A stretch of DNA of 29,323 nucleotides from a virus. The position numbers and the translations under genes were made by a program. Where the stretch lies: the IMG/VR virus record IMGVR_UViG_3300017783_000135, positions 1 to 29,323 of that record, one strand, 5' to 3'. This document shows, piece after piece, positions 3,438 through 29,053 of the stretch; position 1 is the first letter of the stretch, and every line of letters starts with the position of its first letter. The notes under the pieces were generated by a model. That model ran no database searches. It was not told where the DNA came from and saw only the letters and a list, made by a program, of their open reading frames with translations.

Positions 3438-3516
3438 GAAGATGACCCAACTAACATCGGAGCTTCCATCAGTTTACGCTGACGAAGTGATCGGTGTTTT
3501 TTCAACTGGGGTTGGG

Positions 3517-3538: not shown

Positions 3539-3602
3539 TGAGACAAAAACTTCTTGATTTATGCATCGGGATTTACTATCTGATGATCAAGGGTCGATGG
3601 CC

Positions 3603-3677
3603 CGGAGATGACAGGGGTAAGCAGCGGAATCATAATCCGCGTGTCGGGGGTTCAAGTCCCTCCTCCGCTACCAACCA
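3603..3677 (+). other. attP candidate: 3' part of a tRNA-Met(CAT) gene
   Basis: From about 3621 to 3673 the sequence folds as the 3' portion of a tRNA: anticodon stem GCGGA/TCCGC (3624-3628/3636-3640), loop ATCATAA with anticodon CAT (3631-3633), a 5-nt variable loop, T stem-loop 3646-3662 with TTCAAGT, acceptor strand CTCCGCT (3663-3669), discriminator A and encoded CCA (3671-3673). The 5' part is degenerate: only CGGAG (3603-3607) pairs with the acceptor strand, and the 16 nt between it and the anticodon stem cannot form a proper D arm. A 3'-half tRNA about 0.5 kb upstream of a tyrosine integrase is the standard layout of an attP that recombines with, and restores, a host tRNA gene. The anticodon stem lacks the GGG/CCC run of initiator tRNA, so elongator Met (or Ile2) is the likely target. 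Exact core limits need the host sequence. Confidence 0.8.
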
Positions 3678-3724
3678 AAGTCATCATCGGAAACATCAGC
3701 ACCCTTGTACAACAAGGAGACTAG

Positions 3725-7977: not shown

Positions 7978-8220
7978 ATGGAACCTAAACTGAGGACATA
8001 TGAAGAGTACGTCATATTTGGTCAGGTATACCAAGGTGAAGGGATATATTACTGGGAAGAGTTCATGGAGTCACAGACAGAACTTTTCGACCCACCAAAG
8101 TCAGCTGAAGAAGCCATGTCACAGTTAGAACTCATGAGAGAAGACTGGTGCCAGTGTGTTGACTGGAAGATATTACATCGTTTGGTCACAGTGATTAGAG
8201 AGCCAGTTCACGGAAATTAG
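7978..8220 (+). CDS. 80-aa hypothetical protein, paralogue B
   Basis: This gene starts 14 nt after its neighbour, with TAGGAGAG as ribosome binding site. It has the same length (80 aa) and shares the pattern EYVIFGQVYQGEGIYYWEEF at residues 10-29 and DWKILHRLVTVI near 62-73. The two therefore look like an old tandem duplication that has diverged strongly in the middle. No domain is recognised. It is the last gene before the terminator at 8251. Confidence 0.8.
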   Translation: MEPKLRTYEEYVIFGQVYQGEGIYYWEEFMESQTELFDPPKSAEEAMSQLELMREDWCQCVDWKILHRLVTVIREPVHGN

Positions 8221-8250
8221 TAAATACCAACAAACCTAAGCCAACCAAAG

Positions 8251-8274
8251 AGGCCCCCAAGTGGGGCCTTTTTT
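8251..8274 (+). terminator. Strong intrinsic terminator after the polymerase cluster
   Basis: A perfect 7-bp GC-rich stem AGGCCCC/GGGGCCT (8251-8257/8263-8269) with a CAAGT loop is followed by a run of six T (8269-8274). It ends the unit holding RNA polymerase and the two 80-aa genes. A promoter-like element starts 11 nt later, so the module boundary is sharp. Confidence 0.92.
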
Positions 8275-8284
8275 ACGTCTGACA

Positions 8285-8306
8285 CTAAGAGACCCCTATC
8301 GAAGAA
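8285..8306 (+). promoter_or_regulatory. Putative phage RNA polymerase promoter P3
   Basis: CTAAGAGACCCCTATCGAAG lies directly after the terminator at 8251-8274 and 23 nt before the first gene of the replication module. It shares CTAAGAGACCCCTA with P2 and the CGAAG tail with P4. The terminator-promoter order makes this the most persuasive of the four copies. Confidence 0.7.
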
Positions 8307-8328
8307 GTAACAGAAAAGGATCGTCGAA

Positions 8329-8493
8329 ATGCACCCAAGAGAGAAAATCTTGGGGTTGTGTAGCCTGTTCCAAAACAAAGGACAGGACATCCCCGACTGG
8401 CTTCTTAAGCAAGCCAAAGAGGCGAAGGTAACTTTGCCTGGGGCTAAATCAAACCAAACCAATCAGGAGACTAAAAAAGATGAGCAAGACTAG
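8329..8493 (+). CDS. 54-aa hypothetical, first gene of the replication module
   Basis: The ATG at 8329 has an AAAAGGA ribosome binding site 8 nt upstream. The TAG overlaps the start of the ssDNA-binding protein by 14 nt. The product has a helical N-terminal half (REKILGLCSLFQNKGQDIPD) and a polar, highly charged tail (QTNQETKKDEQD). T7 encodes a small host-RNA-polymerase inhibitor (gp2) in a comparable middle-gene position, but no sequence match is apparent, so function is left open. Confidence 0.65.
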   Translation: MHPREKILGLCSLFQNKGQDIPDWLLKQAKEAKVTLPGAKSNQTNQETKKDEQD

Positions 8494-9028
8494 ATTTACA
8501 AGCCCAGCCGGAACAGCCCAATACCCTTGGCTGCAACCAGGGCGCCCAGACACAGCCTTTGATGCTGAGGGTAAATACAAGGTGCAACTCAAGATATCCC
8601 CAGAGAACGCCGGGTCCCTCAAGGAAATCCTAGAGAACGTCAAAAGCGAAAGCTTTGGCGCTAAGGACAAGGTAATGATGCCTATGGATCAAGATCCAGA
8701 GACCGGCGAGATCGTCTTCAAGTTCCAATCCAAGTACGAACCTAAGTACTTTGATGCCAAAGGTAACCCTATCCCCCGCGACCAAGTACCATCGATGTTC
8801 GGTGGGTCTACCCTTCGTGTCTCTGGCATTGCTGATGGTTACACCTCAGCTGGCAAGAAGGGCATCAGCCTGCGCCTAGGGGCCGTTCAAGTGATTGACC
8901 CAGTGTCTAGCGGCGGTGGTGACGGTGGTGGCTTTGATGCTGTCGAGGGCGGCTATGTAGCCAACACAGTAACAGGAGCTCAAAGCTTTGAGACCAAAGA
9001 CGCTGAAGAAGATAACTACGACTTCTAA
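8480..9028 (+). CDS. Single-stranded DNA-binding protein, gp2.5-like
   Basis: A 182-aa protein with an AGGAG ribosome binding site 11 nt upstream. The N-terminal part forms an OB-fold-like beta-rich domain. From about residue 139 it becomes Gly-rich and then strongly acidic, ending KDAEEDNYDF. An acidic tail with terminal Phe is the hallmark of T7 gp2.5, where it docks onto the DNA polymerase and helicase. It coats ssDNA at the fork and promotes annealing. At 182 aa it is shorter than T7 gp2.5 (232). Its 3' end overlaps the next gene by 41 nt. The gene order ssb, endonuclease, primase-helicase, polymerase, exonuclease supports the call. Confidence 0.9.
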   Translation: MSKTRFTSPAGTAQYPWLQPGRPDTAFDAEGKYKVQLKISPENAGSLKEILENVKSESFGAKDKVMMPMDQDPETGEIVFKFQSKYEPKYFDAKGNPIPRDQVPSMFGGSTLRVSGIADGYTSAGKKGISLRLGAVQVIDPVSSGGGDGGGFDAVEGGYVANTVTGAQSFETKDAEEDNYDF

Positions 9029-15115: not shown

Positions 15116-16877
15116 CATGAAGAACGACTTTGGCCCAGCCCTGCCAATCTCAGAAGAAATACATAAGATGAAGTACCGCTCAGTAGGCGAGAGCTTCAAA
15201 GAGGCCATGACAAGGGTAGCCAATGCCCTCAAGGACGATGACGATCACTTTGATACCTTCAGAAACATACTGTACAACCAGCGCTTTCTACCAGCTGGCA
15301 GGGTACAGAGCGCTATGGGCGCACCCAGGACCGTGACGCCTTACAACTGCTTTGTGTCTCCTACCATCGAGGACAGCATGGAAGGCATCATGGCGGCTGC
15401 TACCAATGCAGCTAGAACCATGCAGCTTGGGGGTGGCATAGGCTACGACTTCAGCACCCTACGACCCCGTGGTGCCCTGATCAAAAGCCTCGACAGTAAG
15501 TCATCAGGCCCTATCAGCTTCATGGGTATCTTCGATGCTGTCTGTCAGACTATAGCCTCAGCGGGACACCGTAGAGGAGCTCAGATGGGTGTCTTACGTG
15601 TAGACCATCCAGACATCGAGGAGTTCATCAGAGCAAAGAACAACAGCACCACACTGACAGGGTTTAACATCAGTGTCGGGGTTACTGATGCTTTCATGAA
15701 TGCAGTTAAGACTGGTGACTTCTTTGACCTGACCTTTGAAGGACAAGTGTACAAGACAGTGGATGCCAGAGCCCTCTGGGATGATATCCTAAGGTCTACA
15801 TGGGACTGGGCAGAGCCAGGTATCCTGTTCATCGACCGTATCAACCAGAAGAATAACCTCTGGTACTGTGAGACCATAGCAGCTACCAACCCATGTGGTG
15901 AGCAACCACTGCCACCTAATGGCGCTTGCTTGCTGGGGTCATTCAACCTGACCAAGTACATCAGACAAGACCCCTACACCGATGAGTTCTCCCTAGATCT
16001 TAAGCAGCTGTCTGCAGACATCCCTGCAGTCGTGAGAGCGATGGACAACGTAGTGGACCGTGCTGTGTACCCGATGCCAGCCCAAGAGAAGGAAGCTAAG
16101 GATAAACGGAGGATGGGCCTAGGTGTGACCGGGGTAGCCAATGCCCTAGAGACGCTGGGTCTAAAGTATGGATCTGAGGGCTTCTTGGCTAAGCTGGGTG
16201 AAGTCATGGCTATCATCAGAGACCAATGCTACATGGCATCGGTGGTACTCTCAGCTGAGAAGGGGAGCTTCCCCCTCTATGACAACGTCAAGTATCTGGA
16301 GTCTAACTTCGTCAAGACACTACCAGACCACATCCAAGCAGCCATCGGTATGCATGGGATCCGCAACAGTCATCTGTTGTCTGTAGCACCAACCGGGACA
16401 ATCAGTCTATCAGCTGACAACGTAAGCTCAGGGATAGAACCAGTCTTCAGTCACTACTATGACCGCACGATCCAAACCTTTGATGGACCTAGGATAGAAC
16501 GAGTAGAAGACTACGCTTACCGGGTTCATGGTATCGAAGGTGAGAAGGCCGATGACCTCTCTGTGTTTGACCATGTGGCAGTGCTCAACCTAGCATCACA
16601 CTACGTGGACTCTGCCTGCAGTAAGACATGCAACGTAGGTGCTGATGTCACCTGGGAACAGTTCAAGGACGTCTACATGCAAGCCTATGATGGCGGTGCC
16701 AGCGGCTGCACAACCTTCAGAGCATCAGGTAAAAGATATGGCATACTCAATGCATCAACCAGTGAGGACACAGCTGAACCACAGGCTGAGGAAGACACAG
16801 GTACTGACATCGGTGGTGCTGAGGGTGCTGAGGCCTGCTACTACGACCCACAGACAGGCCAGAGGACATGTGAATAA
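15108..16877 (+). CDS. nrdJ: Adenosylcobalamin-dependent (class II) ribonucleotide reductase
   Basis: A 589-aa protein from ATG 15108, in the coupled position; TTG 15090 and ATG 15117 are alternatives. Active-site cysteines align with the class II pattern: C81 (YNCFVSP), radical cysteine C263 in NPCGEQPLPPNGAC with E265, and its partner C274 eleven residues later (as C408/C419 in the Lactobacillus enzyme). GHRRGAQMG near 153 and VAPTGTISLSADNVSSG complete the core. A C-terminal shuttle pair C577/C588 (CYYDPQTGQRTC) re-reduces the site. It converts ribonucleotides to deoxyribonucleotides with coenzyme B12 and without oxygen or NrdB. The phage therefore depends on host cobalamin. It closes the replication operon. 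Confidence 0.94.
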   Translation: MNDMKNDFGPALPISEEIHKMKYRSVGESFKEAMTRVANALKDDDDHFDTFRNILYNQRFLPAGRVQSAMGAPRTVTPYNCFVSPTIEDSMEGIMAAATNAARTMQLGGGIGYDFSTLRPRGALIKSLDSKSSGPISFMGIFDAVCQTIASAGHRRGAQMGVLRVDHPDIEEFIRAKNNSTTLTGFNISVGVTDAFMNAVKTGDFFDLTFEGQVYKTVDARALWDDILRSTWDWAEPGILFIDRINQKNNLWYCETIAATNPCGEQPLPPNGACLLGSFNLTKYIRQDPYTDEFSLDLKQLSADIPAVVRAMDNVVDRAVYPMPAQEKEAKDKRRMGLGVTGVANALETLGLKYGSEGFLAKLGEVMAIIRDQCYMASVVLSAEKGSFPLYDNVKYLESNFVKTLPDHIQAAIGMHGIRNSHLLSVAPTGTISLSADNVSSGIEPVFSHYYDRTIQTFDGPRIERVEDYAYRVHGIEGEKADDLSVFDHVAVLNLASHYVDSACSKTCNVGADVTWEQFKDVYMQAYDGGASGCTTFRASGKRYGILNASTSEDTAEPQAEEDTGTDIGGAEGAEACYYDPQTGQRTCE

Positions 16878-16891
16878 CTAGGTAAGGCAGC

Positions 16892-16942
16892 TGGTGCGGG
16901 GGTAACACTAAAACCGGAGTTAAGGTTAGCTCTCCCGCACCA
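16892..16942 (+). other. Stem-loop structured element after nrdJ
   Basis: TGGTGCGGG (16892-16900) is perfectly complementary to CCCGCACCA (16934-16942). Inside, TAAC (16903-16906) can pair with GTTA (16919-16922), giving a nested fold. The end CCGCACCA recalls a tRNA acceptor end, but the 51-nt length and missing arms exclude a tRNA. There is no T-run. It may be an mRNA 3'-end structure for the replication operon. Confidence 0.5.
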
Positions 16943-16990
16943 ACCTAGGACCTAGGTCCCTACTGACTGGCACATAGGCCTTAGTTCTAT

Positions 16991-17021
16991 GGTTATCAAG
17001 GTATTTAATCACATGATAACC
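16991..17021. repeat. Inverted repeat GGTTATC...GATAACC
   Basis: A perfect 7-bp inverted repeat with arms 16991-16997 and 17015-17021, separated by 17 AT-rich bases, lies about 80 bp upstream of element P4. Arm spacing of about 24 bp centre to centre could suit a dimeric DNA-binding protein. It could also form an RNA hairpin. Confidence 0.45.
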
Positions 17022-17041
17022 GATGTTCACTATATGCCCCT

Positions 17042-17073
17042 TATCCGATGCCTTATCCCATGTATCCGATGCC
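17042..17073. repeat. Direct repeat TATCCGATGCC, 21-bp period
   Basis: TATCCGATGCC occurs at 17042-17052 and 17063-17073, exactly 21 bp apart (two helical turns), and its CCGATG core also occurs at 17020-17025. Phased short repeats upstream of P4 resemble iterons or activator sites. Confidence 0.5.
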
Positions 17074-17101
17074 TCTTTAGCCGCTTTTAGACACCTAGGT
17101 A

Positions 17102-17123
17102 CTAAGAGCCCCCTATACGAAGG
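17102..17123 (+). promoter_or_regulatory. Putative phage RNA polymerase promoter P4
   Basis: CTAAGAGCCCCCTATACGAA is the copy closest to a T7-like promoter ending (CTATA at 17113-17117). It sits in the repeat-rich gap, about 735 bp before the first virion gene and 490 bp before a 54-aa ORF. It is the only copy seen ahead of the structural genes, so it is the candidate late promoter. The long untranslated leader would include the tandem array. Confidence 0.65.
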
Positions 17124-17240
17124 AAGCTACCAGTGACGACGACCCGTGATCTACCGATGACCAAACCACATGACACTACAGTCCCCTCCCAGACTGTCTC
17201 TTGTCTTCTCCCATGGTGGTTTGGTCTTCCGTGGATCAAC

Positions 17241-17290
17241 TGAGGTAGACTGAGGTAGACTGAGGTAGACTGAGGTAGACTGAGGTAGAC
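17241..17290. repeat. Five perfect tandem copies of TGAGGTAGAC
   Basis: The 10-bp unit TGAGGTAGAC repeats five times without error, preceded by a matching AC and followed about 11 bp later by a related CTGAGGTGG box (17301-17309). The 10-bp period is close to one DNA turn, so a bound protein would meet every copy on the same face. T7 carries short tandem repeats next to its terminal repeats, a possible parallel. Confidence 0.9.
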
Positions 17291-17300
17291 TAATGTGTGA

Positions 17301-17593
17301 CTGAGGTGGCGCTAATGTCCTAATGACTAATGTCCCGATTTGTCTTTAAGATTCACTATGTTAGCCTAACAATTCTTCCGTCATCCCAACCCTACGTCAT
17401 CAGATAGTGTATCCGTTGACCTACGCATCCAATGATATCAATGACTTAGGAATGTCTCAGTGCTTTCGCGGGTCCCATGCCCAGCTTTTGTGGCCCCCAG
17501 TACCCAAATCAATCAATAGATTTCAAAAGTCCGTTAAAGACCTTCGTTGTTGTTGTTGTTGTCCCACCTCAGTTAACAGAGGCTCCACCTCAG
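17301..17593. repeat. CTGAGGTGG box and inverted CCACCTCAG pair
   Basis: CTGAGGTGG (17301-17309) is the reverse complement of CCACCTCAG, found at 17564-17572 and 17585-17593. The latter two are 21 bp apart. The core CTGAGG is shared with the tandem array, so forward and reversed copies of one motif face each other across about 270 bp. Confidence 0.55.
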
Positions 17594-17613
17594 AAAACAA
17601 AGGTCCCCCCAGC

Positions 17614-17778
17614 ATGTACCTAAGCCTCATCACGCCCGACCTAGACAACTGCATCCATGTCTTCCCATCCCTGAACCTCTATTGGGGACCCCCGGATGAC
17701 ATGAGTTCCACCCGCCTACGTCTCACCAGTGTTGAGCTAGCGTGGCTCGGTTATGGCGCATGGCTCCACCTCGCATAA
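17614..17778 (+). CDS. 54-aa hypothetical protein upstream of the fibre gene
   Basis: The frame is open from 17407, but the upstream part encodes a low-complexity CCCCC run from the GTT repeat, so ATG 17614 is preferred; AAAGG lies 10 nt upstream. The product has a protein-like composition: an acidic/hydrophobic N-terminal half (LITPDLDNCIHVFPSLNLYW) and an amphipathic C-terminal part (RLRLTSVELAWLGYGAWLHL). Function unknown. It would be the first product from element P4. CCTAGGT repeats follow in the 79-nt gap before the fibre gene. Confidence 0.45.
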   Translation: MYLSLITPDLDNCIHVFPSLNLYWGPPDDMSSTRLRLTSVELAWLGYGAWLHLA

Positions 17779-17857
17779 CCTAGCCCCCACCTAGGTCCAC
17801 CTAGGTCTACCTAAGACACCTAGGACACCAAAGTAACCATAGATAGGACACCACAGT

Positions 17858-18976
17858 ATGGCCTTAGAAACCGGCACTTACATCAGTGACCTCAACTCTA
17901 GCAATCCAGTAGCCACCGATGGTCTCGCCCAGGCTGATGACCACATCCGTCTAGTCAAGAGTACTCTCAAGGCTACCCTCCCCAATCTTACTGGAGCAGT
18001 CACTGGCACCCAAGATGAGCTTAACATCCTAGATGGAGCCACAATAACCACTGCAGAGCTCAATACGTTAGATGGCCTTACTGCGTCCACCACCGAGCTC
18101 AACAAGGTCGATGGCCTAACTGCGTCTACTGCAGAGCTCAATACGTTAGATGGCCTAACTGCGTCTACTGCAGAGCTCAATACGTTAGATGGCCTTACTG
18201 CGTCCACTGCAGAGCTCAACCACACGGATGGGGTTACCAGTGCCATCCAGACCCAGATTAACTCTAAGCAGCCCACGATAACTGGTGCAGCTACCACCAT
18301 TGATGATACCAACCTGACGGCGTGGCGTGCCTTAATATCCAATGGCTCAGGCAAGGTAGCTGTGTCTTCAGTAACCTCCACAGAGCTAGCGAAGCTCGAT
18401 GGCCTCACTGCGTCAGCTACAGAACTCAATAGAATGGATGGTATTACTGCCAGCACCACTGAGCTCAACCACACGGACGGTGTGAGCAGCAACATCCAGA
18501 CACAGCTGAACGCTAAAGCTCCCACATCCAGAAGCATCAGTGCAGGCGATGGTCTCACTGGTGGTGGCAACCTGACTGCCAATCGCACCATCAGTCACTC
18601 AAACACCTCCTCCCAATCCAGTGTAAACAACAGTGGCAACACTGTGATCCAAGACATATCAGTGGATACCTACGGGCATGTCACCAGCATTGGTTCTAAG
18701 ACAATATCTACAACCGCTGGTAACTCTTTAAGCACAGGTAGTGGAGCCTGGACTGATGGGTCTGGTGGCCTACAGATCCGCTTTGGGACTGTTAGTAGTA
18801 CGTCAGATGGTGCCCAGTCGTTTAATTTTACTTCAGCATTTAGTAGTGCTTGCCTTGTCTGTGTAGTTGGTGGCGAGGCCCAAACCACAGCCGTTAGCCG
18901 CACTGGTTTTACTATAGACAGAGAGAATGACTACAACGGAACTAAAGCCCTACAATACATAGCCTTGGGTTACTAG
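17858..18976 (+). CDS. Tail fibre protein with 13-residue repeats
   Basis: A 372-aa protein, with AGGA 9 nt before the ATG. The N-terminus (ALETGTYISDLNSSNPVATD...ADDHIRLVKSTLKATLPN) is a common phage fibre attachment module. Residues 53-128 and again near 174-210 are repeats of the type AELNTLDGLTAST. A stalk segment GDGLTGGGNLTANRTISH and a C-terminal globular domain (ending TGFTIDRENDYNGTKALQYIALGY) like the gp53-type fibre C-terminal domain follow. It should form a trimeric receptor-binding fibre. It is the second fibre gene in the window and opens the virion gene block. Confidence 0.88.
   Translation: MALETGTYISDLNSSNPVATDGLAQADDHIRLVKSTLKATLPNLTGAVTGTQDELNILDGATITTAELNTLDGLTASTTELNKVDGLTASTAELNTLDGLTASTAELNTLDGLTASTAELNHTDGVTSAIQTQINSKQPTITGAATTIDDTNLTAWRALISNGSGKVAVSSVTSTELAKLDGLTASATELNRMDGITASTTELNHTDGVSSNIQTQLNAKAPTSRSISAGDGLTGGGNLTANRTISHSNTSSQSSVNNSGNTVIQDISVDTYGHVTSIGSKTISTTAGNSLSTGSGAWTDGSGGLQIRFGTVSSTSDGAQSFNFTSAFSSACLVCVVGGEAQTTAVSRTGFTIDRENDYNGTKALQYIALGY
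18015..18240 (+). repeat. 39-bp tandem repeats inside the fibre gene
   Basis: Units of 39 bp encode the 13-aa motif (A/T)ELNxxDGxTAST. Three consecutive units beginning with GCAGAGCTCAATACGTTAGA are almost identical at the DNA level, differing mainly at third positions. This points to recent duplication, with potential for change in fibre length by slippage or recombination. Confidence 0.85.
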
Positions 18977-18978
18977 AG

Positions 18979-20598
18979 ATGCCCCTGCTCCCCATAAGAA
19001 ACCTAGGTGCTGCAGGGGTAATCACTGACGTTGACCCCTTCAACCTCCCGTTTAATGCCTTCACCAGAGCTAAGAACGTCAGGTTCTCAGATGGAAACGT
19101 GGAGAGATCCCCCGTCTTCAGGACTGCATATGACTACACTAGCTCCAGCACTAGGGTCCCCTCGTTTGTCTTTGGCTTAAGTAACCCCGGCACCTTCGAC
19201 ACAGTGCTTATAGTCAACGATGACTTCTCAGTGGATGAGTTCTCCAATGGTGCTGTGTCTTCAGTACACACAGACACCCAGTCACCCTCTCCCGCCCCAG
19301 TCACCGGCACCACCCTAGCCTCAGTAGAGTACCTCAACAGGCCCTCTAGAGTACCAATCGCTAGAACCCCTACCGCCAGTACCTTTAGCACCCTAGCCAA
19401 CTGGGATAGCACCTGGCGCACTAGCTCCCTGAGGTCCTTTGGTGACTTCATGTTAGCCTTGAACCTAACCGAGGGCAGCACCAGCTACCCCAACCGGGTG
19501 CGCTTCTCAGATATCACCTTAGCCAACAATGTACCTGGATCTTGGGATGCAACAGACACCACCAAGTCTGCAGGCTTCAATGATCTGGTGCAGCTTAGGA
19601 CCCCCATCGTGGACGGGGCCACCCTAGGTTCCAACTTCCTGATCTACTCCAGCGACCAAGTGTGGAACATGGAGTTCGTAGGTGGCACCTTCATATTCAA
19701 CTTCCGTAAGGTCTTTGATGATGCTGGTGTAATTAACCAGAACTGCATCCTAGAGGTCGAAGGTAAGCACTATGTCTTTGATACAGATGACATCTATGTC
19801 AACGATGGCATCACCAGGCAGTCTATATGTGACAACCGTGTCCGAGACTACATCTTCAATGGCCTCGATATGTCTCTACAAGAGGCCTGCTTTGTTATGC
19901 ATGTGGCCGACCTCGAAGAGATCTACTTCTGTTACCACTCAGGTGATGACCTAGCTGTCTATGATGACGTAAGTGGCTGCAACAGGGCAGCTGTCTATAA
20001 CTACAGATCAGACACATGGTCCTTCGTGGATCTACCTAATGTAACCTCAGGGTCCCTAGCCAACCTAGACACCGTGGCTACCTATGCCACCACAGGGTTA
20101 ACCTACGATAGCACGGGCGGCACCTATCACGCTCAGGAATCCAAGTTTACCAGATACCCAGTCATGGTCTCTAAGAAGGACACCACAGCTGGTATCACTA
20201 GCCCACGTCTCTTAGGCCTCGACCTAGTGGACTCTGGGTCCTTGAACTTACCTGAGACCACTGAGGTCAATAAACCTATGTACCTAGAGCGCACGGGCAT
20301 TGACCTAGACCAGGAAGCTCAGCTTCCCATTAGTAGTTACAAGGTGATCAATAAGATATTTCCTCAGATCACCACACCAGCAACTGAGCATGAGTTTACC
20401 TTTACCTTTGGTGCAGCTGATCTAGCACCAGACGCACCAGCCTATGGTTCATCAGTTACCTTCGATAACTCAACAGACCACAAGTTAGACACAAGGATTG
20501 CTGGTAGATACCTAAGCTACAAGGTTGAGACACCGACCATCAAAGACTTCACCCTGTCAGGCATGGACGTAAACATAGTGCCCACTGGGAGGCGTTAA
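18979..20598 (+). CDS. 539-aa virion structural protein, tail-tube or propeller-like
   Basis: The gene starts 2 nt after the fibre stop. The N-terminus, LPIRNLGAAGVITDVDPFNL followed by PFNAFTRAKNVRFSDGNVERSP, is a motif I associate with podovirus tail or adaptor-type structural proteins (an N-terminal arm followed by NVRFxDGxV). The rest is beta-rich with many short strands and Gly/Ser/Thr turns, as in beta-propeller or tubular tail proteins. It is shorter than T7 gp12 (794 aa) and shows no clear similarity to it. A tail tube or tail hub protein is my best guess; the place between a fibre gene and the ejection-like proteins supports a tail role. Confidence 0.7.
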   Translation: MPLLPIRNLGAAGVITDVDPFNLPFNAFTRAKNVRFSDGNVERSPVFRTAYDYTSSSTRVPSFVFGLSNPGTFDTVLIVNDDFSVDEFSNGAVSSVHTDTQSPSPAPVTGTTLASVEYLNRPSRVPIARTPTASTFSTLANWDSTWRTSSLRSFGDFMLALNLTEGSTSYPNRVRFSDITLANNVPGSWDATDTTKSAGFNDLVQLRTPIVDGATLGSNFLIYSSDQVWNMEFVGGTFIFNFRKVFDDAGVINQNCILEVEGKHYVFDTDDIYVNDGITRQSICDNRVRDYIFNGLDMSLQEACFVMHVADLEEIYFCYHSGDDLAVYDDVSGCNRAAVYNYRSDTWSFVDLPNVTSGSLANLDTVATYATTGLTYDSTGGTYHAQESKFTRYPVMVSKKDTTAGITSPRLLGLDLVDSGSLNLPETTEVNKPMYLERTGIDLDQEAQLPISSYKVINKIFPQITTPATEHEFTFTFGAADLAPDAPAYGSSVTFDNSTDHKLDTRIAGRYLSYKVETPTIKDFTLSGMDVNIVPTGRR

Positions 20599-20600
20599 CT

Positions 20601-20879
20601 ATGTCTTTGTCAGATAAGCTCAACATACTAACTAGGGTCTACACCAGGCGACCCACGCCAGCCCTAGAGGCTAGCTTCAAGAACTTCATCCAAGATGAGC
20701 TCAGAGAGATTGAGGCATCCGTAAAGTCTATAGCTGACGCAGCACCCCAAGTAGCCGATAACGCTCCTAGTAGCCCACGGAAGGGTATGGTGCGCTATGC
20801 CGTGTCACCTTGGAACCCTCTCTCGAATGGCTATCAGGGACTGGTTGTCTACAACGGGACAGCTTGGGTCCAAGTTTAA
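20601..20879 (+). CDS. 92-aa hypothetical structural-region protein
   Basis: The ATG lies 2 nt after the preceding stop, with GGGAGG about 8 nt upstream. The N-terminal two thirds are helical and charged (DKLNILTRVYTRR; FIQDELREIEASVKSIADA). The C-terminal third is beta-type and ends PLSNGYQGLVVYNGTAWVQV, a segment typical of short fibre or collar proteins where GLVVYNGTAW precedes the end. It may be a small tail accessory or fibre-capping protein. No family is certain. Confidence 0.75.
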   Translation: MSLSDKLNILTRVYTRRPTPALEASFKNFIQDELREIEASVKSIADAAPQVADNAPSSPRKGMVRYAVSPWNPLSNGYQGLVVYNGTAWVQV

Positions 20880-20940
20880 GCCATCTCTCACAGAAGACTA
20901 ATAAAAATAAAAGCCAACAAAGGCTAAAGGAGTATCCAGC

Positions 20941-22464
20941 ATGTGGGGCCAAATCATTAGTGCCGTTGCACCAACCGTCATAGGCGGCATCATGGGCAAC
21001 AAGGCCGCTAAAGAAGACCGCAAGAATGTGGACAAGATGAACGAAGCTAACATGGCTTCCTTCAATCAGTACAAACCCTACGTTGACGCAGCCCTCTCAG
21101 GTGGACAAGGTGCCTTCAATGGCGTCTTAGACACTGGCTACTACCAAGGCCCCACCTACGCTGGACCTAACGCCACACAGATGGGCGCTATTGGCAATGC
21201 ATCTAATGCATCCAATGCCCTCTACAACTCAGGTATGGGCATGATGAATGCCGGTGCTGGCTTTGGAAACAACGCCAACTCACTGTACAACTCCGCTGTG
21301 GCTAACGCCGGTAACATCGGCAACTACCAAGGCACATTCGATCAAGGCATCCAAGACCAGCGGAACCTAGCTAACTCATACACTGGCCTCGCTGGTAACA
21401 TAGCTGACGCTGGTGCCCAATATGGAAACTATAGAAACCAGTTTGATCAACTTGGTAACGACTTACGTGGCTACGAAGGCCAGTTCGGTGGTCTCTCAGG
21501 CCAGCAACAGGGCCTCACAGATCGCTTCACAGGCATGGCAGACCAGGCAGCTAACACTGACCGCCTAGGCAATGCTATAGACTACGCCACGGCCAACTCA
21601 GGCTCTCTGATAGACGCTGTGATGCGTGACAGCACCAGGCAGCTGCAAGAGCAAACGCTCCCCGGTATTAACACAGCTGCTTCTGGGTCTGGTAATGTCA
21701 ACTCAAGCCGTGCCGGTGTAGCCGATGCTATTGCCCAGCGCTCTTATGATGACAGACGCGCTGACGTTGGCGCACAGATCACAGACAGGCTGATGGATCG
21801 CTCCCTGACCCAGCAACAACAACAGTTTGCTGATCAGTCCGGTGCCCTAAACAACGCTGGTTCGTCTATTAGTAACACCGGCAACCAGATGACCAATGCA
21901 GCCAACTCCTTGATCAATGCAGGCAATCAGTTTGGCAGCGCAGCCAACATGGTTTCCAACGACATCAACTCCCTGACATCCTCAGGTAACATGCTTGGTA
22001 ATGCTGGCAACGCCTACAATAACTCCATGAATGCTGCGACTGGTGCTACGGGCAACATAGGTTCTATGAATAACGCCCTGACCTCAGCCGGTGGTTTCAA
22101 CAATATGTTGTCTAACGCCTACAACACTGGGGTGAACAACCTTGGCACTAGTTACAACATGGGCATGACTGCAGGCACTGCAGGTCAGACCTTTGACCAG
22201 AATCAACTGAATGATGCGCGCAACCGCTTCGAGGGTAACCGAGACTTTGGCTACAACATGTACAAGGATTACATGGGTAATATGCTAAACCGGGCACCCA
22301 GCACTAACAACCAAGCTGCAGCCAACATGGCTAGCCCAACTACAGCGACTCTGGGTGGAATGCAGTCTGGCTTTGGGTTTGGTCAACAGTACTTAGGTAA
22401 TGGCTTTAATAGCAAAATGTTTAATCCTCTGTTTGGGGGATCTGGGATAGGAGGGTTTGCATAA
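20941..22464 (+). CDS. 507-aa Asn/Gly-rich virion protein, ejection-protein candidate
   Basis: An AAAGGAG ribosome binding site lies 8-9 nt upstream. The N-terminus (MWGQIISAVAPTVIGGIMGN) is one hydrophobic, Gly-containing segment, followed by a charged helix (KAAKEDRKNVDKMNEANM). From about residue 75 the protein is very rich in Asn, Gly, Ala and Gln, with loose repeats such as NAGN, GNAYNNSMN and SAANMV, plus a central more ordered helical segment (about 215-285, with TRQLQEQTLPGINTAASGSG). Such proteins in podovirus genomes are usually internal virion or pilot proteins that form the ejection conduit (like T7 gp14). That role is inferred from composition and position. It overlaps the next gene by 1 nt. 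Confidence 0.75.
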   Translation: MWGQIISAVAPTVIGGIMGNKAAKEDRKNVDKMNEANMASFNQYKPYVDAALSGGQGAFNGVLDTGYYQGPTYAGPNATQMGAIGNASNASNALYNSGMGMMNAGAGFGNNANSLYNSAVANAGNIGNYQGTFDQGIQDQRNLANSYTGLAGNIADAGAQYGNYRNQFDQLGNDLRGYEGQFGGLSGQQQGLTDRFTGMADQAANTDRLGNAIDYATANSGSLIDAVMRDSTRQLQEQTLPGINTAASGSGNVNSSRAGVADAIAQRSYDDRRADVGAQITDRLMDRSLTQQQQQFADQSGALNNAGSSISNTGNQMTNAANSLINAGNQFGSAANMVSNDINSLTSSGNMLGNAGNAYNNSMNAATGATGNIGSMNNALTSAGGFNNMLSNAYNTGVNNLGTSYNMGMTAGTAGQTFDQNQLNDARNRFEGNRDFGYNMYKDYMGNMLNRAPSTNNQAAANMASPTTATLGGMQSGFGFGQQYLGNGFNSKMFNPLFGGSGIGGFA

Positions 22465-23324
22465 TGGACCCACTCTTGATGGACCCCACCCTATTCCAGC
22501 CTCAGTCACCTATTACTCAAGGGCCCAACCCCCAACCGGGGCCACCTATGCCTCCACAAGGGCCAGCCTTAATTAATCCAGCGCAACCACAGCCCCAAGC
22601 ACCAGCACTGTCTGCAGCCTCTACGGGTGCAACAGGTAACGCCCGTGGCTCAAGCCGTATGCCCAACCAGAAGATTGGCCTAGGCGAAGCTATGATGCGT
22701 ATGGGTGGTGCCACAATGGCGGCTAGCTCCCAGGGTGCCTTGGCTGGCCTAGGTGCAATGAGTGATAGCTACGGTCAGATCCAAGACTACAACCGTGCCC
22801 GTGAGATGGAAGCCTTTGAGATCGAAGAGGCACGTAGGAAGGCCATTGCTGATCGACAAGCTAGAGCTCAGGCAGCTGCAGCTAAGGCAAACAAGGGTGA
22901 CCCTTCAGAAAACCTTATAGGAATGCAGGCATCCTATGACCAGATGTCCGAAGCATTAACTGCCTTGAAGAAAGACAACCTCACTGGCCCATTTGCTGGA
23001 CGCCTAGGTGCATGGCTCGATGCCAGTGGCCTGAGTGATTACTACAATGGTAATGATGAAGGGGCCAAACGCGCCTACATGCGTTCAATCCTGGCAAATA
23101 TCCAGGTGGACGATACTCTTTTAAAGACTGCCAATACCAAAGGTGCAATCTCAGACAAAGAGATGGACCTGTTCAAGAGCCCCTTACCAAAGATCACCGA
23201 TGATGAGGGTCTGTGGCGTCTCTACATCACTGAACGCATGGACGTCCTGTCTAAGGTTATCGCTTTTGAGCGTGGCCTCTCTAACGGAGCAGGCGATTAC
23301 ACAATCGTAGAAGATCCAGAATAA
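22464..23324 (+). CDS. 286-aa putative internal virion protein
   Basis: The start codon overlaps the preceding stop (TAATG). The first 60 residues are Pro/Gln-rich and disordered (MDPLLMDPTLFQPQSP and following). Residues 68-100 form a Gly/Ala/Met-rich segment (IGLGEAMMRMGGATMAASSQ), then a long charged coiled coil (about 108-145, REMEAFEIEEARRKAIADRQ) and a compact C-terminal domain with TKGAISDKEMDLFKSPLPKI. Its place between the Asn-rich protein and the giant protein suggests one of three co-packaged ejection proteins, as with T7 gp14-gp15-gp16, although sequence similarity to those is not apparent. Confidence 0.75.
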   Translation: MDPLLMDPTLFQPQSPITQGPNPQPGPPMPPQGPALINPAQPQPQAPALSAASTGATGNARGSSRMPNQKIGLGEAMMRMGGATMAASSQGALAGLGAMSDSYGQIQDYNRAREMEAFEIEEARRKAIADRQARAQAAAAKANKGDPSENLIGMQASYDQMSEALTALKKDNLTGPFAGRLGAWLDASGLSDYYNGNDEGAKRAYMRSILANIQVDDTLLKTANTKGAISDKEMDLFKSPLPKITDDEGLWRLYITERMDVLSKVIAFERGLSNGAGDYTIVEDPE

Positions 23325-23338
23325 ATCAGGAGTACGTG

Positions 23339-26300
23339 ATGGCTACGTTTACAATCACCGCCCCTGACGGGAAGCGGTATAAGGTTACTGGTGCGACTAA
23401 AGAAGGTGCCTTAGCAGCACTGAAGTCTAAGCTAGAAGGCCCACAGCAACCAACGCAACCCCAGCAACAACCACAAGTCCAACCACAAGTGCAGCCTCAG
23501 CAACAGCAAGTTTCAGCACCACAAGACACCTCTATGGGTTCTGCCTTCAAGGTAGCCGATGCCCAATCACAGGGTGCGTCTATGTCTGGCACTGCATCCC
23601 TTCAGCGCAACCTATCTCAAGGGCCTTTTGGTCAGTTCTTACAGAGCGCTACCGACAACTATGTTAACCCTATTCGTGAGGGGTTAGGTTTTGACCCTAT
23701 AGATCGTACCCAAGTAGATGCAGATGCGTCTGCTAGACTCCAGGCTGGTGCTGATAGAGCCAATGCAGAAGCTGAAAAGATTGCAGAGGACCTAGACTTC
23801 TACAATATGACCACCTCGGACATTAACAGTGTCGGTGACTTTGTTAACTTTATTGGCCAGAAGACAGCCCAAGCAGCCCCATACATGGGCGCAGCTTTAG
23901 CATCAGGCGGTACTCTTACATATCCATTTGCTGTCGGTGAGATTAGCCAGAACTTGTCAGAGATCGAGGGTTTACCTCAAGAGAAAGCAGACGATATTGC
24001 CGCCGCTGGTGGTGCCATCTCAGCTGCCTTAGAAACCCTAGGTATCGCCAAGCTTCTGCCTAAAGGTACGTCTAATAGCATCCTAGGTGGTATTGCGAGC
24101 GGTGTAATAACCGAGGGCACAACCGAGGGCCTTCAAGAACTAGTTAACATCGGATCTGAAGCCGTAGGTGGTAAGCAGTTTTCAGAAGGTGAAATACTAA
24201 ACAGACTGAAAGAGGCTGCAGCTGCGGGTAGTGTTGCTGGTGGTGCCTTCAAAGGTGGCACACAGGCCGCTTCTAAAGCTAAGAGCCTGTTTACCTCTGA
24301 TGGTAAACTTAACGTAAACAACCTTGATGACCCCACCAAGCTTGCAGCTGGTGATGTCGCTAGAGAACTACAGCAAATCGCTACAGCTGAAGGCTTTAAG
24401 CTTTCCAATGTAGACGTCACTGCCCAGTTTGGAGCTAAGGGTGCCCTAGAAGCTGTCCGTGAGCAAAACAACGGTGAAATCACAGAACTAGTGAAGGCTC
24501 TCAAGGGTAAACTAAACAGCAAGAACGCTAGCTCCCTGGATCAAGTGATATCTGATTTTGCCCCTGCCAATGCTGGCATCAAGTCAGGCAAGAACAAAGT
24601 ATCTGGGTATGTAAGCAAAACACAGATGGCTGCATTAGCCCGCCTGGTGGGTCCTTACAAAGAGGGCGCTGCCCTCATGAATGCTTTAGCCAAATCTAAT
24701 GTAATCACCGGGTTATTCAAAGGTGGTATGAAGGGCGGCGTTAGCCAATTCACTGACTACTTCAGTCCCTTTGGTACGTCTGGTGCTGTCTATGATCCAA
24801 CGCGCATTGGTAACATCATTGTCGGTGGTGGTGCAGCTGCAGCTACCCTAGGTCAGTCAGTACCAATTCAAGCAGGCATAGTAGGCTTAGGTCGCCTGGT
24901 TGATGCAGCCACTGGTCGCCGCAATAAGTTATCAAGGTTCGTCAACAAGAACGTCAACGCACAGGGCCTACCCTCGCCATCTGGTGTATCTCTAGTAGAC
25001 AAGGCCAAGACAGCTGAAGCGGATGCAAAGGTCCGTAGAGAAGCTCTAGCTGCCATAGCCACCCAGATCGATGCTCCACCCAACGCCAACTCCCCGGTAG
25101 GAACCATCCTCTCTGGCACAGGCCTCTCACGGGATGGTCTATCGCAGACAATCAACAGTATGGCCCAAGACTTCGCAGGCCAACCTGAGTTAGCCCCTGT
25201 CTTGGAGAGCATCCAACAGAATATGGATGGGGACACCAACCCCGTCTTGGAGCTCAACGAGATCATCCCGATCATCGGTCAATACGCTCAGATGACTGCA
25301 CCAGAACTCATTGTGGCAACCCCAGACAACCCTTTGTTGGCTCGCGGTGTGCAACAGTCTCCAACGCAGACTGATGTACAAACTGAAGCACCTAGTCAGC
25401 CTCAGTCTGGCAACCAGTTCACAACCCCGGAGAACTACCAGGCAGGCAAGAGCGACAACAACAGCTTTGCCAGAACCTTAGCATCCCAAGTATCCGAAGA
25501 TGCCGGGGTATCTGTGTCTGACAAAGCGCAGCTGATGACCGCCCTAGAAGACGTACAGTCTAGCCTAGGACCAGACCCCGTTGCAGCACTCGATGAGATC
25601 ACCACAGAGCTCCAGAACATCGGTGTTAACCAAGATACCATAGACACCTACTTCAAGCCTTACAGAGACCGTGTGGCGCTCCAGCAAGCCCGTGTGGGAC
25701 GTATGCAAGCCCCTAGTGATACGCCACCAGCTGCGCCTACTGTAGATCAGTCATTAGTTGCACCTACAGAGGAGCCTCAGACTTACGAAGCGGCTCTGGA
25801 ACGTCTGACAACCACAAATATAGTTGCTGGTGCTGTCCGTAAGATCACGGAAGGCAACATGGACCCAGCGTCTGTGGAAGCCATGCTCAATCAACTGGAG
25901 CAGAACAACCCCGGCATCAAAGCTAGGATTCTGGAGATCACTGATCCACAACAGCAATCTGAAGACAGCCCTAGGTTTGCTAGGATTGCTCCTGTCCCGT
26001 TTAACAACGACAGAATGCAACAGATGTTTGGGGTCGAGGATCCTACACCTGGCGGCAACTATATTGACCTAGATACAAAGGAAGACCTCACAGGTAATAC
26101 CTATGCAGGCGGTAAGGTTTCTATTGTTGACGGTAAGCCTGTCTTAGATACCAGTGATGACTTCTCTGAGCCAGCCACGAAAGCTGATGGCCGCAAGGTA
26201 AAGGTCAACCTATTTAAACAAAAAGCTGGCTGGAAGTGGATCGATTATGATGGCCCGGCCACCATTGTTTCTACTGAAGTAGGCGGCAAGCACCACTACG

Positions 26301-29053
26301 CTTTGTCTTCTGACTTCCAGAACCCGGTAACACTTCAGACATACCCCAACCAACCTAGTGAACCAAGATTACGCCCGACCACCCAAGGTGAGGTGGAGCT
26401 TGGAAACAAGATTGGCAACATCAGTGTCCGAGGAAAGATTCACCCCGTATATGATGAAGTGCGTATTGTCTCAAAGAGCCCAGAGCGTCCTAGGTTTGCT
26501 AAAGACCTAAACTCTGCGTCTCAAGAGCCTACATTACAGACATATGTAAATCCTCTGAACGTGCCCACATCTGAAATCAACGCTACTCGCCTTAATGAGT
26601 CACCTAGTGAAGCTGATATCCAAAAGATGCGTGAAGGTTCATATAAGCCTACTAAAAAGCGTAATCTGGTTGAAGCTGCAGATTACATGCACCAAAAGTG
26701 GAAAGAAGCCACAGGCCGTAGTGAGCCGTTTGAGTACACACCTGAGAACGTGGATATCATATCTACTTACATGGCAACTGAGGCTGCTAACGCACTACAA
26801 AGTGACGCTAACGCCATCGGATGGTATGACCGCAAGCTCAAAGCAGCAAAACGTGTTGTATCTCTTGTTGATCCCCGCGTAACCCAGTCACCAGACGCAG
26901 AAGCAGCTTTTGATTTTGCTCTAGCTGTTACTTCTAATGGTCAGGCCGTGGCCGACAACTTCCAGTATGCACTAGAGGTTTTCCGTCACTTTATGGACAA
27001 CGGTAAGATGCCTACCGACACCTGGATTAAAGGTGGTGAGCGGAACGCCGCTATGCTTGAGGCCTTTGACTTCTTTAATGCCTATCAGTCTTCTGGTGCA
27101 AATATGCCCATCCAAGACTTCATGGATCAAGACTTTACTGTCAACGAGCTCAATGACTACATATCTCGGTTCAACGCCCAATATGGTACAGAAATCAAAG
27201 TACCATCATCAGAAGGTGCAAACTCGCAAGTCAAAGGTTCATACATAATAGGACCTAAGATCGGCCAAGGTTTCTACCAGAACATCCGTGGTAACTACGA
27301 CCCACTTACGATGGACATTTGGTGGATGCGTATGTGGAACCGATTGGTCGGGCGTCCATTTGTTGCAGACCCAGATCTTGACCAAGGTCGATCTAACGTC
27401 AAAGGAGCCTTGAAGACTGTAGGTAAACTTGAGCAGAAGATGGTAAACCAGACGCTCAAGCAAATGGGTGTCGGTAAGCGTGATATTAACAAAGACCCAG
27501 CACTGTTTGACGATTTTGTCACTAAGGTCGAGAAAAGGTATCAGAAGTTTTACAAGAAGTACAAAGAGGAAAATGGTGTAAACCACACTAAGCCAAACTT
27601 CTTTAAGAAGACTGGAACCCATGTAAAAAACCTTAAACCACAGCTACAAGCACAGCCAAAAGGCCCAAGTGAACGTGCGTACATGCGTGACGTTACAAAG
27701 GCTGCAATAGCAAAACTTAGTGATCTTGGTTACAATATCGAAACAGCTGACTTCCAAGCTTTGATGTGGTACCCTGAGAAACAATTATTCAGACATTTAG
27801 GCGTAGCCCCTGGAAGAGGCTCAGATAATGACTATCTAGATGCTGCAATCATGCTTGCGGAAGGCGAAGGAATAGCAAATGACCAAATCCAAGAAGCACT
27901 CCCCGATGCAGACGGAGACGGAGCCGTCAATAATCAGCCAAGTACCCCCAGAGGCGATGAAGGACTTTATCGAGGGGATGGTAGCGATGGCCCAAGCCAA
28001 GAGAGCCCAAGGTTCAACCAGCAACCCACAGGAGTCGCAGGCATCCTCGCCCAGCGGATTCAAGGAAATCCTAATGGACCCACCGCCAGGGGTGCTGTCC
28101 CCGGCGTTCAAGAGGTAAAAGGTCACGTAGATCACGCACGGGCTTTAGTCGAGATAGGTAAGCCCGGAACTCAGTATGAGAATGGCATCAAAGACCAACG
28201 CATGGTTGAGCACCTAGCTGAGGCTGTTGGCATTACCCTCAAGATGTTCGATGACCAAAGTGTTATGCTAGACGATGGCAAAGTCCCCGACAATTTACGA
28301 GAACAAGGTGAGGCCGCTAGTGGTTTCTATAAACGTAAAGAAAACACAGCAAGGGCCCTACTACCAGGTGGACGGGTGATTTCCACAAATAGACTAGTTA
28401 AGCCTTTTGATTCTTACATAGCTGCACTTCATGAGGTTGCTCATGGTATTGCTGGTAGAGACATTGAGGGTGGTTTAACCCAAAATGTTAACATGGGTAA
28501 AAACTACCTAACTGGCCGTAAAGACTCAGCCCCAATAGATACCCTTGAGCATATGATTGGTAACCTGGTAACAATGCCCAGCGCCAAGAAAAACAAGATT
28601 GTCCAAGAGATTATGTCTTTGCAAGACGACAGCTTCTTTAACAACAGCGGTCCAGATGACTTCCAACCAGTGAGGCCGACAGGCCCTGAGAAACGCCGCC
28701 TTGCAGACCTGGAACGCGGTGATCCTGAAAAATACGAACTTAGGGATCGCATTAAGAACTTTGAGAAATACTCTCGCAGCGTCCCAGAGTTTACTGTCGA
28801 TCCTCTCATCATGTATCTTTTTGACCCCAAGCAAATGAAGAGCGTTGCACCTGAGACAGCCAAAGCCATCAGGGCCTTCTTTGTGAATAGCTCAAAGATC
28901 CGCTTCTACAGTCACCCACTAGCGATGGCCTTTGCTGTCGTTATGGCAATGCTCATGAAGCAAGAGCAAGCTGAGGAAGAAGAGCGCCAGAAGCAACAAC
29001 AGATGGCACCAGGGGCTCTAACGCCCCCACCGGGCGCACTATCAGCCGCCTAA
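23339..29053 (+). CDS. 1,904-aa modular virion protein with HEXXH zincin motif
   Basis: ATG 23339 is preferred over GTG 23336: AGGAG lies 6 nt before the ATG. Order of parts: an N-terminal FTITAPDGKRYKVTGATKEG module (1-35), a Gln/Pro-rich linker (36-62), Ala/Gly-rich hydrophobic helices (about 175-310) such as conduit-forming ejection proteins carry, and further helical regions to 877. PRF tripeptides at 878-880, 1051-1053 and 1557-1559 separate the rest: a beta-rich segment, a large domain with GPKIGQGFYQN (about 1305) and DPLTMDIWWMRMWNR, and a C-terminal domain with HEVAH (H1698, E1699, H1702). A DADGDGAVN calcium-loop-like motif sits at 1523-1531. Probably injected with the DNA, as T7 gp16 is; protease activity is inferred. 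A polyvalent-type protein is the best description. Confidence 0.85.
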   Translation: MATFTITAPDGKRYKVTGATKEGALAALKSKLEGPQQPTQPQQQPQVQPQVQPQQQQVSAPQDTSMGSAFKVADAQSQGASMSGTASLQRNLSQGPFGQFLQSATDNYVNPIREGLGFDPIDRTQVDADASARLQAGADRANAEAEKIAEDLDFYNMTTSDINSVGDFVNFIGQKTAQAAPYMGAALASGGTLTYPFAVGEISQNLSEIEGLPQEKADDIAAAGGAISAALETLGIAKLLPKGTSNSILGGIASGVITEGTTEGLQELVNIGSEAVGGKQFSEGEILNRLKEAAAAGSVAGGAFKGGTQAASKAKSLFTSDGKLNVNNLDDPTKLAAGDVARELQQIATAEGFKLSNVDVTAQFGAKGALEAVREQNNGEITELVKALKGKLNSKNASSLDQVISDFAPANAGIKSGKNKVSGYVSKTQMAALARLVGPYKEGAALMNALAKSNVITGLFKGGMKGGVSQFTDYFSPFGTSGAVYDPTRIGNIIVGGGAAAATLGQSVPIQAGIVGLGRLVDAATGRRNKLSRFVNKNVNAQGLPSPSGVSLVDKAKTAEADAKVRREALAAIATQIDAPPNANSPVGTILSGTGLSRDGLSQTINSMAQDFAGQPELAPVLESIQQNMDGDTNPVLELNEIIPIIGQYAQMTAPELIVATPDNPLLARGVQQSPTQTDVQTEAPSQPQSGNQFTTPENYQAGKSDNNSFARTLASQVSEDAGVSVSDKAQLMTALEDVQSSLGPDPVAALDEITTELQNIGVNQDTIDTYFKPYRDRVALQQARVGRMQAPSDTPPAAPTVDQSLVAPTEEPQTYEAALERLTTTNIVAGAVRKITEGNMDPASVEAMLNQLEQNNPGIKARILEITDPQQQSEDSPRFARIAPVPFNNDRMQQMFGVEDPTPGGNYIDLDTKEDLTGNTYAGGKVSIVDGKPVLDTSDDFSEPATKADGRKVKVNLFKQKAGWKWIDYDGPATIVSTEVGGKHHYALSSDFQNPVTLQTYPNQPSEPRLRPTTQGEVELGNKIGNISVRGKIHPVYDEVRIVSKSPERPRFAKDLNSASQEPTLQTYVNPLNVPTSEINATRLNESPSEADIQKMREGSYKPTKKRNLVEAADYMHQKWKEATGRSEPFEYTPENVDIISTYMATEAANALQSDANAIGWYDRKLKAAKRVVSLVDPRVTQSPDAEAAFDFALAVTSNGQAVADNFQYALEVFRHFMDNGKMPTDTWIKGGERNAAMLEAFDFFNAYQSSGANMPIQDFMDQDFTVNELNDYISRFNAQYGTEIKVPSSEGANSQVKGSYIIGPKIGQGFYQNIRGNYDPLTMDIWWMRMWNRLVGRPFVADPDLDQGRSNVKGALKTVGKLEQKMVNQTLKQMGVGKRDINKDPALFDDFVTKVEKRYQKFYKKYKEENGVNHTKPNFFKKTGTHVKNLKPQLQAQPKGPSERAYMRDVTKAAIAKLSDLGYNIETADFQALMWYPEKQLFRHLGVAPGRGSDNDYLDAAIMLAEGEGIANDQIQEALPDADGDGAVNNQPSTPRGDEGLYRGDGSDGPSQESPRFNQQPTGVAGILAQRIQGNPNGPTARGAVPGVQEVKGHVDHARALVEIGKPGTQYENGIKDQRMVEHLAEAVGITLKMFDDQSVMLDDGKVPDNLREQGEAASGFYKRKENTARALLPGGRVISTNRLVKPFDSYIAALHEVAHGIAGRDIEGGLTQNVNMGKNYLTGRKDSAPIDTLEHMIGNLVTMPSAKKNKIVQEIMSLQDDSFFNNSGPDDFQPVRPTGPEKRRLADLERGDPEKYELRDRIKNFEKYSRSVPEFTVDPLIMYLFDPKQMKSVAPETAKAIRAFFVNSSKIRFYSHPLAMAFAVVMAMLMKQEQAEEEERQKQQQMAPGALTPPPGALSAA

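Follow-up and report, generated by a model that had tools for sequence, protein, structure and literature searches.

The perfect tandem array of the 10-bp unit TGAGGTAGAC, located in the gap between the ribonucleotide reductase (RNR) and tail genes of a marine phage, may be part of a T7-like concatemer junction, that is, of a genome end together with a packaging signal; we give this reading slightly better than even credence, and the array would then probably help to cut and package the genome. For such a junction, a position between the replication and structural modules is unusual. The DNA analyzed, hereafter the window, is a 29,323-bp IMG/VR virus fragment from the roughly 40-kb genome.

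The unit is repeated five times without error at positions 17241–17290 on the + strand, exactly as the initial annotation had described, and TRF extends the array to 17239–17307 (period 10, 6.8 copies, score 108). Within the window, exact self-matching at period 10 extends over at most 43 bp, while 60 simulated windows yielded a maximum of 17 bp at any period from 6 to 15; the length of the array is far beyond chance, with a z of about 10 as a short-period repeat. A single further copy of TGAGGTAGAC occurs in the window, at 1046, and allowing at most one mismatch there are 12 matches against 2.2 expected. Downstream, a degenerate continuation (ACTAATGT, ACTGAGGT, GCTAATGT, ACTAATGT) occupies 17291–17331, delineated by the TRF span to 17307 and by the AC-N4-GT site that it shares with the arrays of other lineages. 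The surroundings are indeed repeat-rich, with more repeats at 17039, 17564, and 17787; the accompanying remark that the genome has almost no other non-coding DNA was overstated, as our gene calls leave ~3.1 kb of the 29.3-kb window non-coding.

The gene content of the window progresses from an integrase through a T7-type RNA polymerase, SSB, primase-helicase, DNA polymerase, exonuclease, and ribonucleotide reductase, for which B12-dependent enzymes are among the best matches, to the virion genes, with all main genes on the + strand. The RNA polymerase is of the T7-type single-subunit kind (phrog_414, E 6e-196). A near-complete relative, G001 (39,965 bp), starts and ends within one gene, which is consistent with a map of ~40 kb. 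From the nearest isolates, a host among the marine Rhodobacteraceae can be guessed. Upstream of the integrase gene, at 3600–3680, we noted a sequence resembling the 3′-half of a tRNA, GGGGGTTCAAGTCCCTCCTCCGCTACCA, at which ARAGORN found no complete tRNA; this sequence is a candidate attP and suggests that the phage, with its T7-type polymerase, is temperate. A search for prophages in bacterial genomes using the RNA polymerase found none, and a DNA search of phage records returned no match to the intergenic region or to its conserved core.

At 980 bp, the gap that houses the array (16878–17857, from the ribonucleotide reductase to the tail gene) is the largest non-coding piece of the window, and it holds a whole module of cis-elements; its extent follows from the open reading frame list and gene calls, and the order RNR, intergenic region, tail, vsp is syntenic in relatives. 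Excepting the gap itself and a dyad described below, to which no strand is assigned, the elements are given on the + strand. Immediately after the RNR stop codon, a stem-loop at 16892–16943 (fold −30.9 kcal/mol, z −3.1) resembles a terminator but lacks a U run. It is followed at 17101–17123 by a predicted phage RNA polymerase promoter, ACTAAGAG(A/C)CCCCTATACGAAGG. The 15-bp motif ACTAAGAGACCCCTA precedes the RNA polymerase gene (5075) and SSB (8284), the copy at 17101 differs from it by one mismatch, and a weaker copy is present at 3516. Synteny of these sites extends to G001, G002, G003, and G008, as expected of phage promoters, and the motif in the gap is probably a late promoter. Between promoter and array lies a long hairpin at 17147–17238, with arms of 23 nt that are 87% complementary and an RNA fold of −40.6 kcal/mol (z −7.1); local folding is strong at the equivalent position in other lineages as well. 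In L018 and L022, two possible small open reading frames are inserted after the late-promoter hairpin and before the array, one of which resembles a short hydrophobic peptide.

Beyond the array and its continuation, a near-invariant block, GTCCCGATTTGTC, occupies 17332–17344. An alignment of 25 sequences, A1, delineates an imperfect dyad, GTCATCAGATA-n-TATCCGTTGACC, at 17396–17422, for which 78% of alignment cells are paired, with five double-change pairs that fall mainly in one subtype. The same alignment delineates a conserved DNA core at 17388–17568 (mean column identity 68%), which includes AATCAATCAATAGATTTCAAAAG (17507–17529) and (GTT)n. A pair of 21-bp repeats, CCACCTCAGTTAACAGAGGCT, in which the site has the opposite orientation, follows at 17564–17605 and is expanded in some relatives; at 17787–17829, repeat finding identified CACCTAGGTC, a second repeat with a 10-bp period, accompanied by ACCTAGGT palindromes.

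This arrangement bears on the proposal, offered as an alternative in the initial annotation, that the region acts in the late transcript as an mRNA leader, in which promoter, processing hairpin, and array would tune how stable the transcript of the structural operon is or how well it is translated. The array does lie downstream of the probable late promoter, which is the last of four phage promoter motifs and stands ahead of the structural genes, and the hairpin at 17147–17238 is very stable. Against this, folding of the full leader is barely above that of shuffled sequences (z −1.5), and the conserved core has no consensus RNA fold, with RNAalifold returning only four invariant pairs, which points to a DNA element more than to an RNA element. 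A period of one helical turn and the dyad character of the AC-N4-GT site likewise suit double-stranded DNA better than RNA. An Rfam search of 16700–18000 returned nothing at E values up to 5. We regard the leader reading as improbable.

To follow the array among relatives, nine contigs were obtained from a scan for three consecutive units, further relatives were reached via a virion protein, and 41 stretches were collected through the conserved downstream core AATCAATCAATNGATTTCAAAA. The genes flanking these 41 stretches, where found on the contig, are RNR and/or tail and virion genes, and there is one locus of this kind per genome. Close relatives carry TGAGGTAGAC at the same place in 2–7 copies. 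Most lineages possess an array of some other unit at the same distance, ending about 200–250 bp upstream of the core; these units include GTCTACCTCT, TGACTGATGTC, ACGAAGGAGTG, TAACTCAGGTC, and AGTGGAGACTTG, as well as CACAGTGTTAC, ACCACAGTGTA, GTCTAACCTTG, TACCGAGGTGT, and others, with periods of 10, 11, 12, 22, or 24. Autocorrelation over 140 bp in 22 non-redundant lineages peaked at lags 11, 22, 33, and 10. Self-similarity at the place of the array was significant in 14 of the 22, while the other eight had no significant array, and the best lag fell at 10–12 in 13 of these 14, compared to seven of 16 significant control blocks (binomial 1.6e-7 for the excess; Fisher 0.006). A sister lineage (L049, L056, L059, and L062) retains the conserved core without a helical array or ACYNNRGT enrichment, and its promoter sequence is apparently different.

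That the array could be a neutral minisatellite in a tolerant spacer, functionless itself and with only the flanking blocks of consequence, has to be weighed here. Variation of the copy number between 2 and 7, replacement of the unit between lineages, and absence of the array from some of them are all in keeping with such a repeat. The restriction of 13 of 14 significant arrays to a period of 10–12 at a fixed place is not, although descent could explain part of this restriction and the common period may reflect descent rather than selection; nor is a dinucleotide pattern common to the arrays beyond its null, described next. On balance, we consider a neutral repeat rather unlikely.

Among 2,304 gapped dinucleotide pairs, AC-N4-GT was the top pattern, with at least three occurrences in nine of 13 arrays; it ties with the overlapping AC-N3-GG on array count, and its total is the highest. 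As AC-N4-GT was picked from the arrays themselves, its support comes from i) a column-permuted null for gapped patterns, which reached a maximum of seven arrays, and ii) sites outside the array. Within the intergenic region of the window, the palindromic form ACYNNRGT has nine sites outside the array versus 0.8 in shuffled sequences, a density of 10.2 per kb in the region versus 1.76 per kb elsewhere. The densest ACYNNRGT cluster lies in the gap, both in the window and in the three close relatives.

The array runs into the near-invariant block GTCCCGATTTGT. Across 17 family sequences, its consensus is agGTCCCGATTTGT..ttAAaAGAaa; the family sequences were retrieved by the pattern core, so that the inner consensus bases are fixed by the search and the flanking bases are free. 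Exact-pattern scans for the block also returned chance hits without related genes (L142, L146, L166, L168, and L169), which were excluded from the 17-sequence consensus; a separate 22-sequence lag count contains these hits and is therefore not used as evidence. The comparison set comprised T7-type phages whose terminal repeats are identical at both ends of the record. ATCTGTT stands directly 3′ of the terminal repeat in T7, T3, phiYeO3-12, and Syn5, and is offset by 1 bp in SP6; P-SSP7 has ACCTGTT, gh-1 has ATCTGTC at the repeat end, and phiKMV has none. The window block reads ATTTGT where the known ends read ATCTGTT. Placing the T7 end GTCCCT/ATCTGTTA (GTCCCTATCTGT, the slash denoting the repeat boundary) against GTCCCGATTTGTCT of the window gives 10 matches over the first 12 bases. 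By our own estimate, so short a match has a probability of ~4% for one strand of the whole 980-bp gap, and of about 0.1% within the invariant block. By this correspondence, the terminal repeat would have its right end at 17337/17338. An overall DNA alignment to the T7 junction was not significant (p 0.2).

The initial annotation had linked the array to the short repeats beside the T7 terminal repeats, and T7 does exhibit its strongest short-period self-similarity genome-wide at position 181, with a lag of 13, just inside the 160-bp repeat. The same holds for SP6 at position 201, with a lag of 12, just inside its 174-bp repeat, and T3 possesses a lag-12 array in its terminal repeat, while a coding region of that phage scores higher. 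At the ends of gh-1, P-SSP7, Syn5, and phiKMV, the array signal is weak or none, so that the association of array and end is clear in three of seven phages (T7, T3, and SP6). In CRP-125, a T7-like marine phage, a lag-10 array is located in the gap after the terminase gene, where its association with a genome end is conjectural.

Individual systems resemble the window to differing degrees. T7 and T3 (SRL/SRR) share with it a short-period degenerate array at the junction, an upstream phage promoter, and the GTCCCnAT(C/T)TGT block; they differ in period (13 and 12, versus 10–12), in overall sequence, to which there is no similarity, and in the case of T7 in order, the strongest array lying after the motif in T7 and before it in the window. 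SP6 is alike in its 12-bp-lag array just inside the repeat and in a repeat that ends at TATCTGTT, and unlike in unit, genome place, and terminase. In gh-1, a phage promoter is followed by a stem-loop, annotated as an RNase III site, and then by the terminal repeat, an order like that of promoter, hairpin, and putative junction in the window. In cobaviruses, phages of marine Rhodobacteraceae, a region free of ORFs, located between gene modules, matched the terminal repeats (PMC6775973), a likeness to the window by description; the cobavirus-like records that we viewed carry their structural genes on the opposite strand, unlike the window. The pac regions of SPP1 and SF6 also possess direct repeats at the start of packaging; pac spans the start of the small-terminase gene, whereas the window site lies ~11 kb from TerL.

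The suggestion of a genome end or packaging signal, the best supported of the readings, is upheld in part, by the retention of place and helical period in relatives, the block match, and the arrays of T7, T3, and SP6; against it stand the location away from the terminase gene, a terminase that is not of the T7 type, and the existence of arrayless lineages. In G001, a candidate small terminase (8019–8561), TerL, portal, scaffold, and capsid genes are all present and none is T7-type: TerL is nearest that of CRP-7 at 40%, not a T7-type DNA maturase, and the portal belongs to phrog_1216. No gp3.5-like amidase was recognised. TerL lies about 11 kb downstream of the gap, and the site, between RNR and the tail genes, does not follow TerL and precede the early genes as the junction does in T7. 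Given its distance from TerL and a terminase of another type, we do not class the locus as a member of the T7 junctions, and suggest instead that it probably works like one. A T7-like replication and transcription module joined to another structural cassette makes the phage a chimera. The non-T7 TerL/portal/scaffold/capsid cassette was traced over 8019–18374 of L098 (G001) and 17858–29053 of the window.

Contig ends, used as a proxy for termini, are scattered; three fall in the intergenic region at differing sites and many contigs read through, which indicates no shared break. Contigs that cross the region fit both collapsed repeats and permuted DNA. Assemblies collapse terminal repeats, and the T7-like cyanophage P-SSP7 was for this reason first taken as circularly permuted (PMC3350473).

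A replication origin, the other alternative of the initial annotation, accounts for several of the same features. A primer transcript of the phage polymerase would start at 17101, an initiator or an architectural protein would occupy the phased sites, and the DNA would open at the A+T-rich core (17507–17530), about 400 bp downstream of the promoter. A conserved A+T-rich core that has no consensus RNA structure and is preceded by a phage promoter and phased sites fits this scheme, as does the single locus per genome. In the window and in G001, G002, and G003, cumulative GC skew peaks where the intergenic region begins (16929 in the window), a point that has genes of a single strand to either side. 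Yet a cumulative maximum is more terminus-like, and the skew is inconsistent in more distant relatives. The T7 origin region (5500–6300) has no such array, T7-type primase sites (KKGTC) are modestly above shuffled sequences and near the genome rate of the window, and no initiator gene was recognised. An origin is less supported than a genome end, and we deem it unlikely, if less so than the leader or the neutral repeat.

Returning to the concatemer junction, the order of promoter, hairpin, phased array, and GTCCCnAT(C/T)TGT suits a site of polymerase pausing and packaging-complex loading. Here, head-to-tail phage DNA would be cut into unit genomes and packaged. A transcript of the phage RNA polymerase would start at 17101 and pass through the hairpin and the array up to the GTCCCGATTTGTC block, which would be the sequence counterpart of the motif at the terminal-repeat ends of T7, T3, SP6, and Syn5. 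AC-N4-GT sites one helical turn apart would offer repeated contacts on one face of the DNA, along which DNA-binding domains, set in a ring or a row and most simply those of the small terminase, could be arranged; in the ring of the SF6 small terminase, HTH motifs are reported to be spaced by about one turn of DNA, so that DNA can wrap with little demand on its sequence (PMC4737164). The paused polymerase may help to position the packaging complex. What the sequences show is the array with its place and period, the degenerate site common to the units, the block beside it, the promoter motif, and the hairpin; that a terminal repeat lies here, that the polymerase pauses, and that terminase binds and cuts are inferences.

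Each lineage would homogenize its own unit by slippage, so that the sequence changes but the period and the place are kept. A bolder and more tentative proposal, to which we assign clearly less than even credence, is that selection acts on helical period and position and not on sequence, with the unit rewritten in each lineage around one weak AC-N4-GT dyad contact per turn, and that the junction has been relocated between modules in a chimera of T7-type polymerase and foreign terminase. If the junction reading is right, helically phased arrays together with CCCnAT(C/T)TGT could locate the ends of uncultured T7-like phages from assemblies that collapse repeats, and the lineages would furnish a natural series of swappable units for testing whether it is the phase of the DNA rather than its sequence that packaging complexes read.

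At 18048–18219, the tail gene contains a 39-bp coding tandem repeat in 4.4 copies, encoding repeats such as STAELNTLDGLTA.
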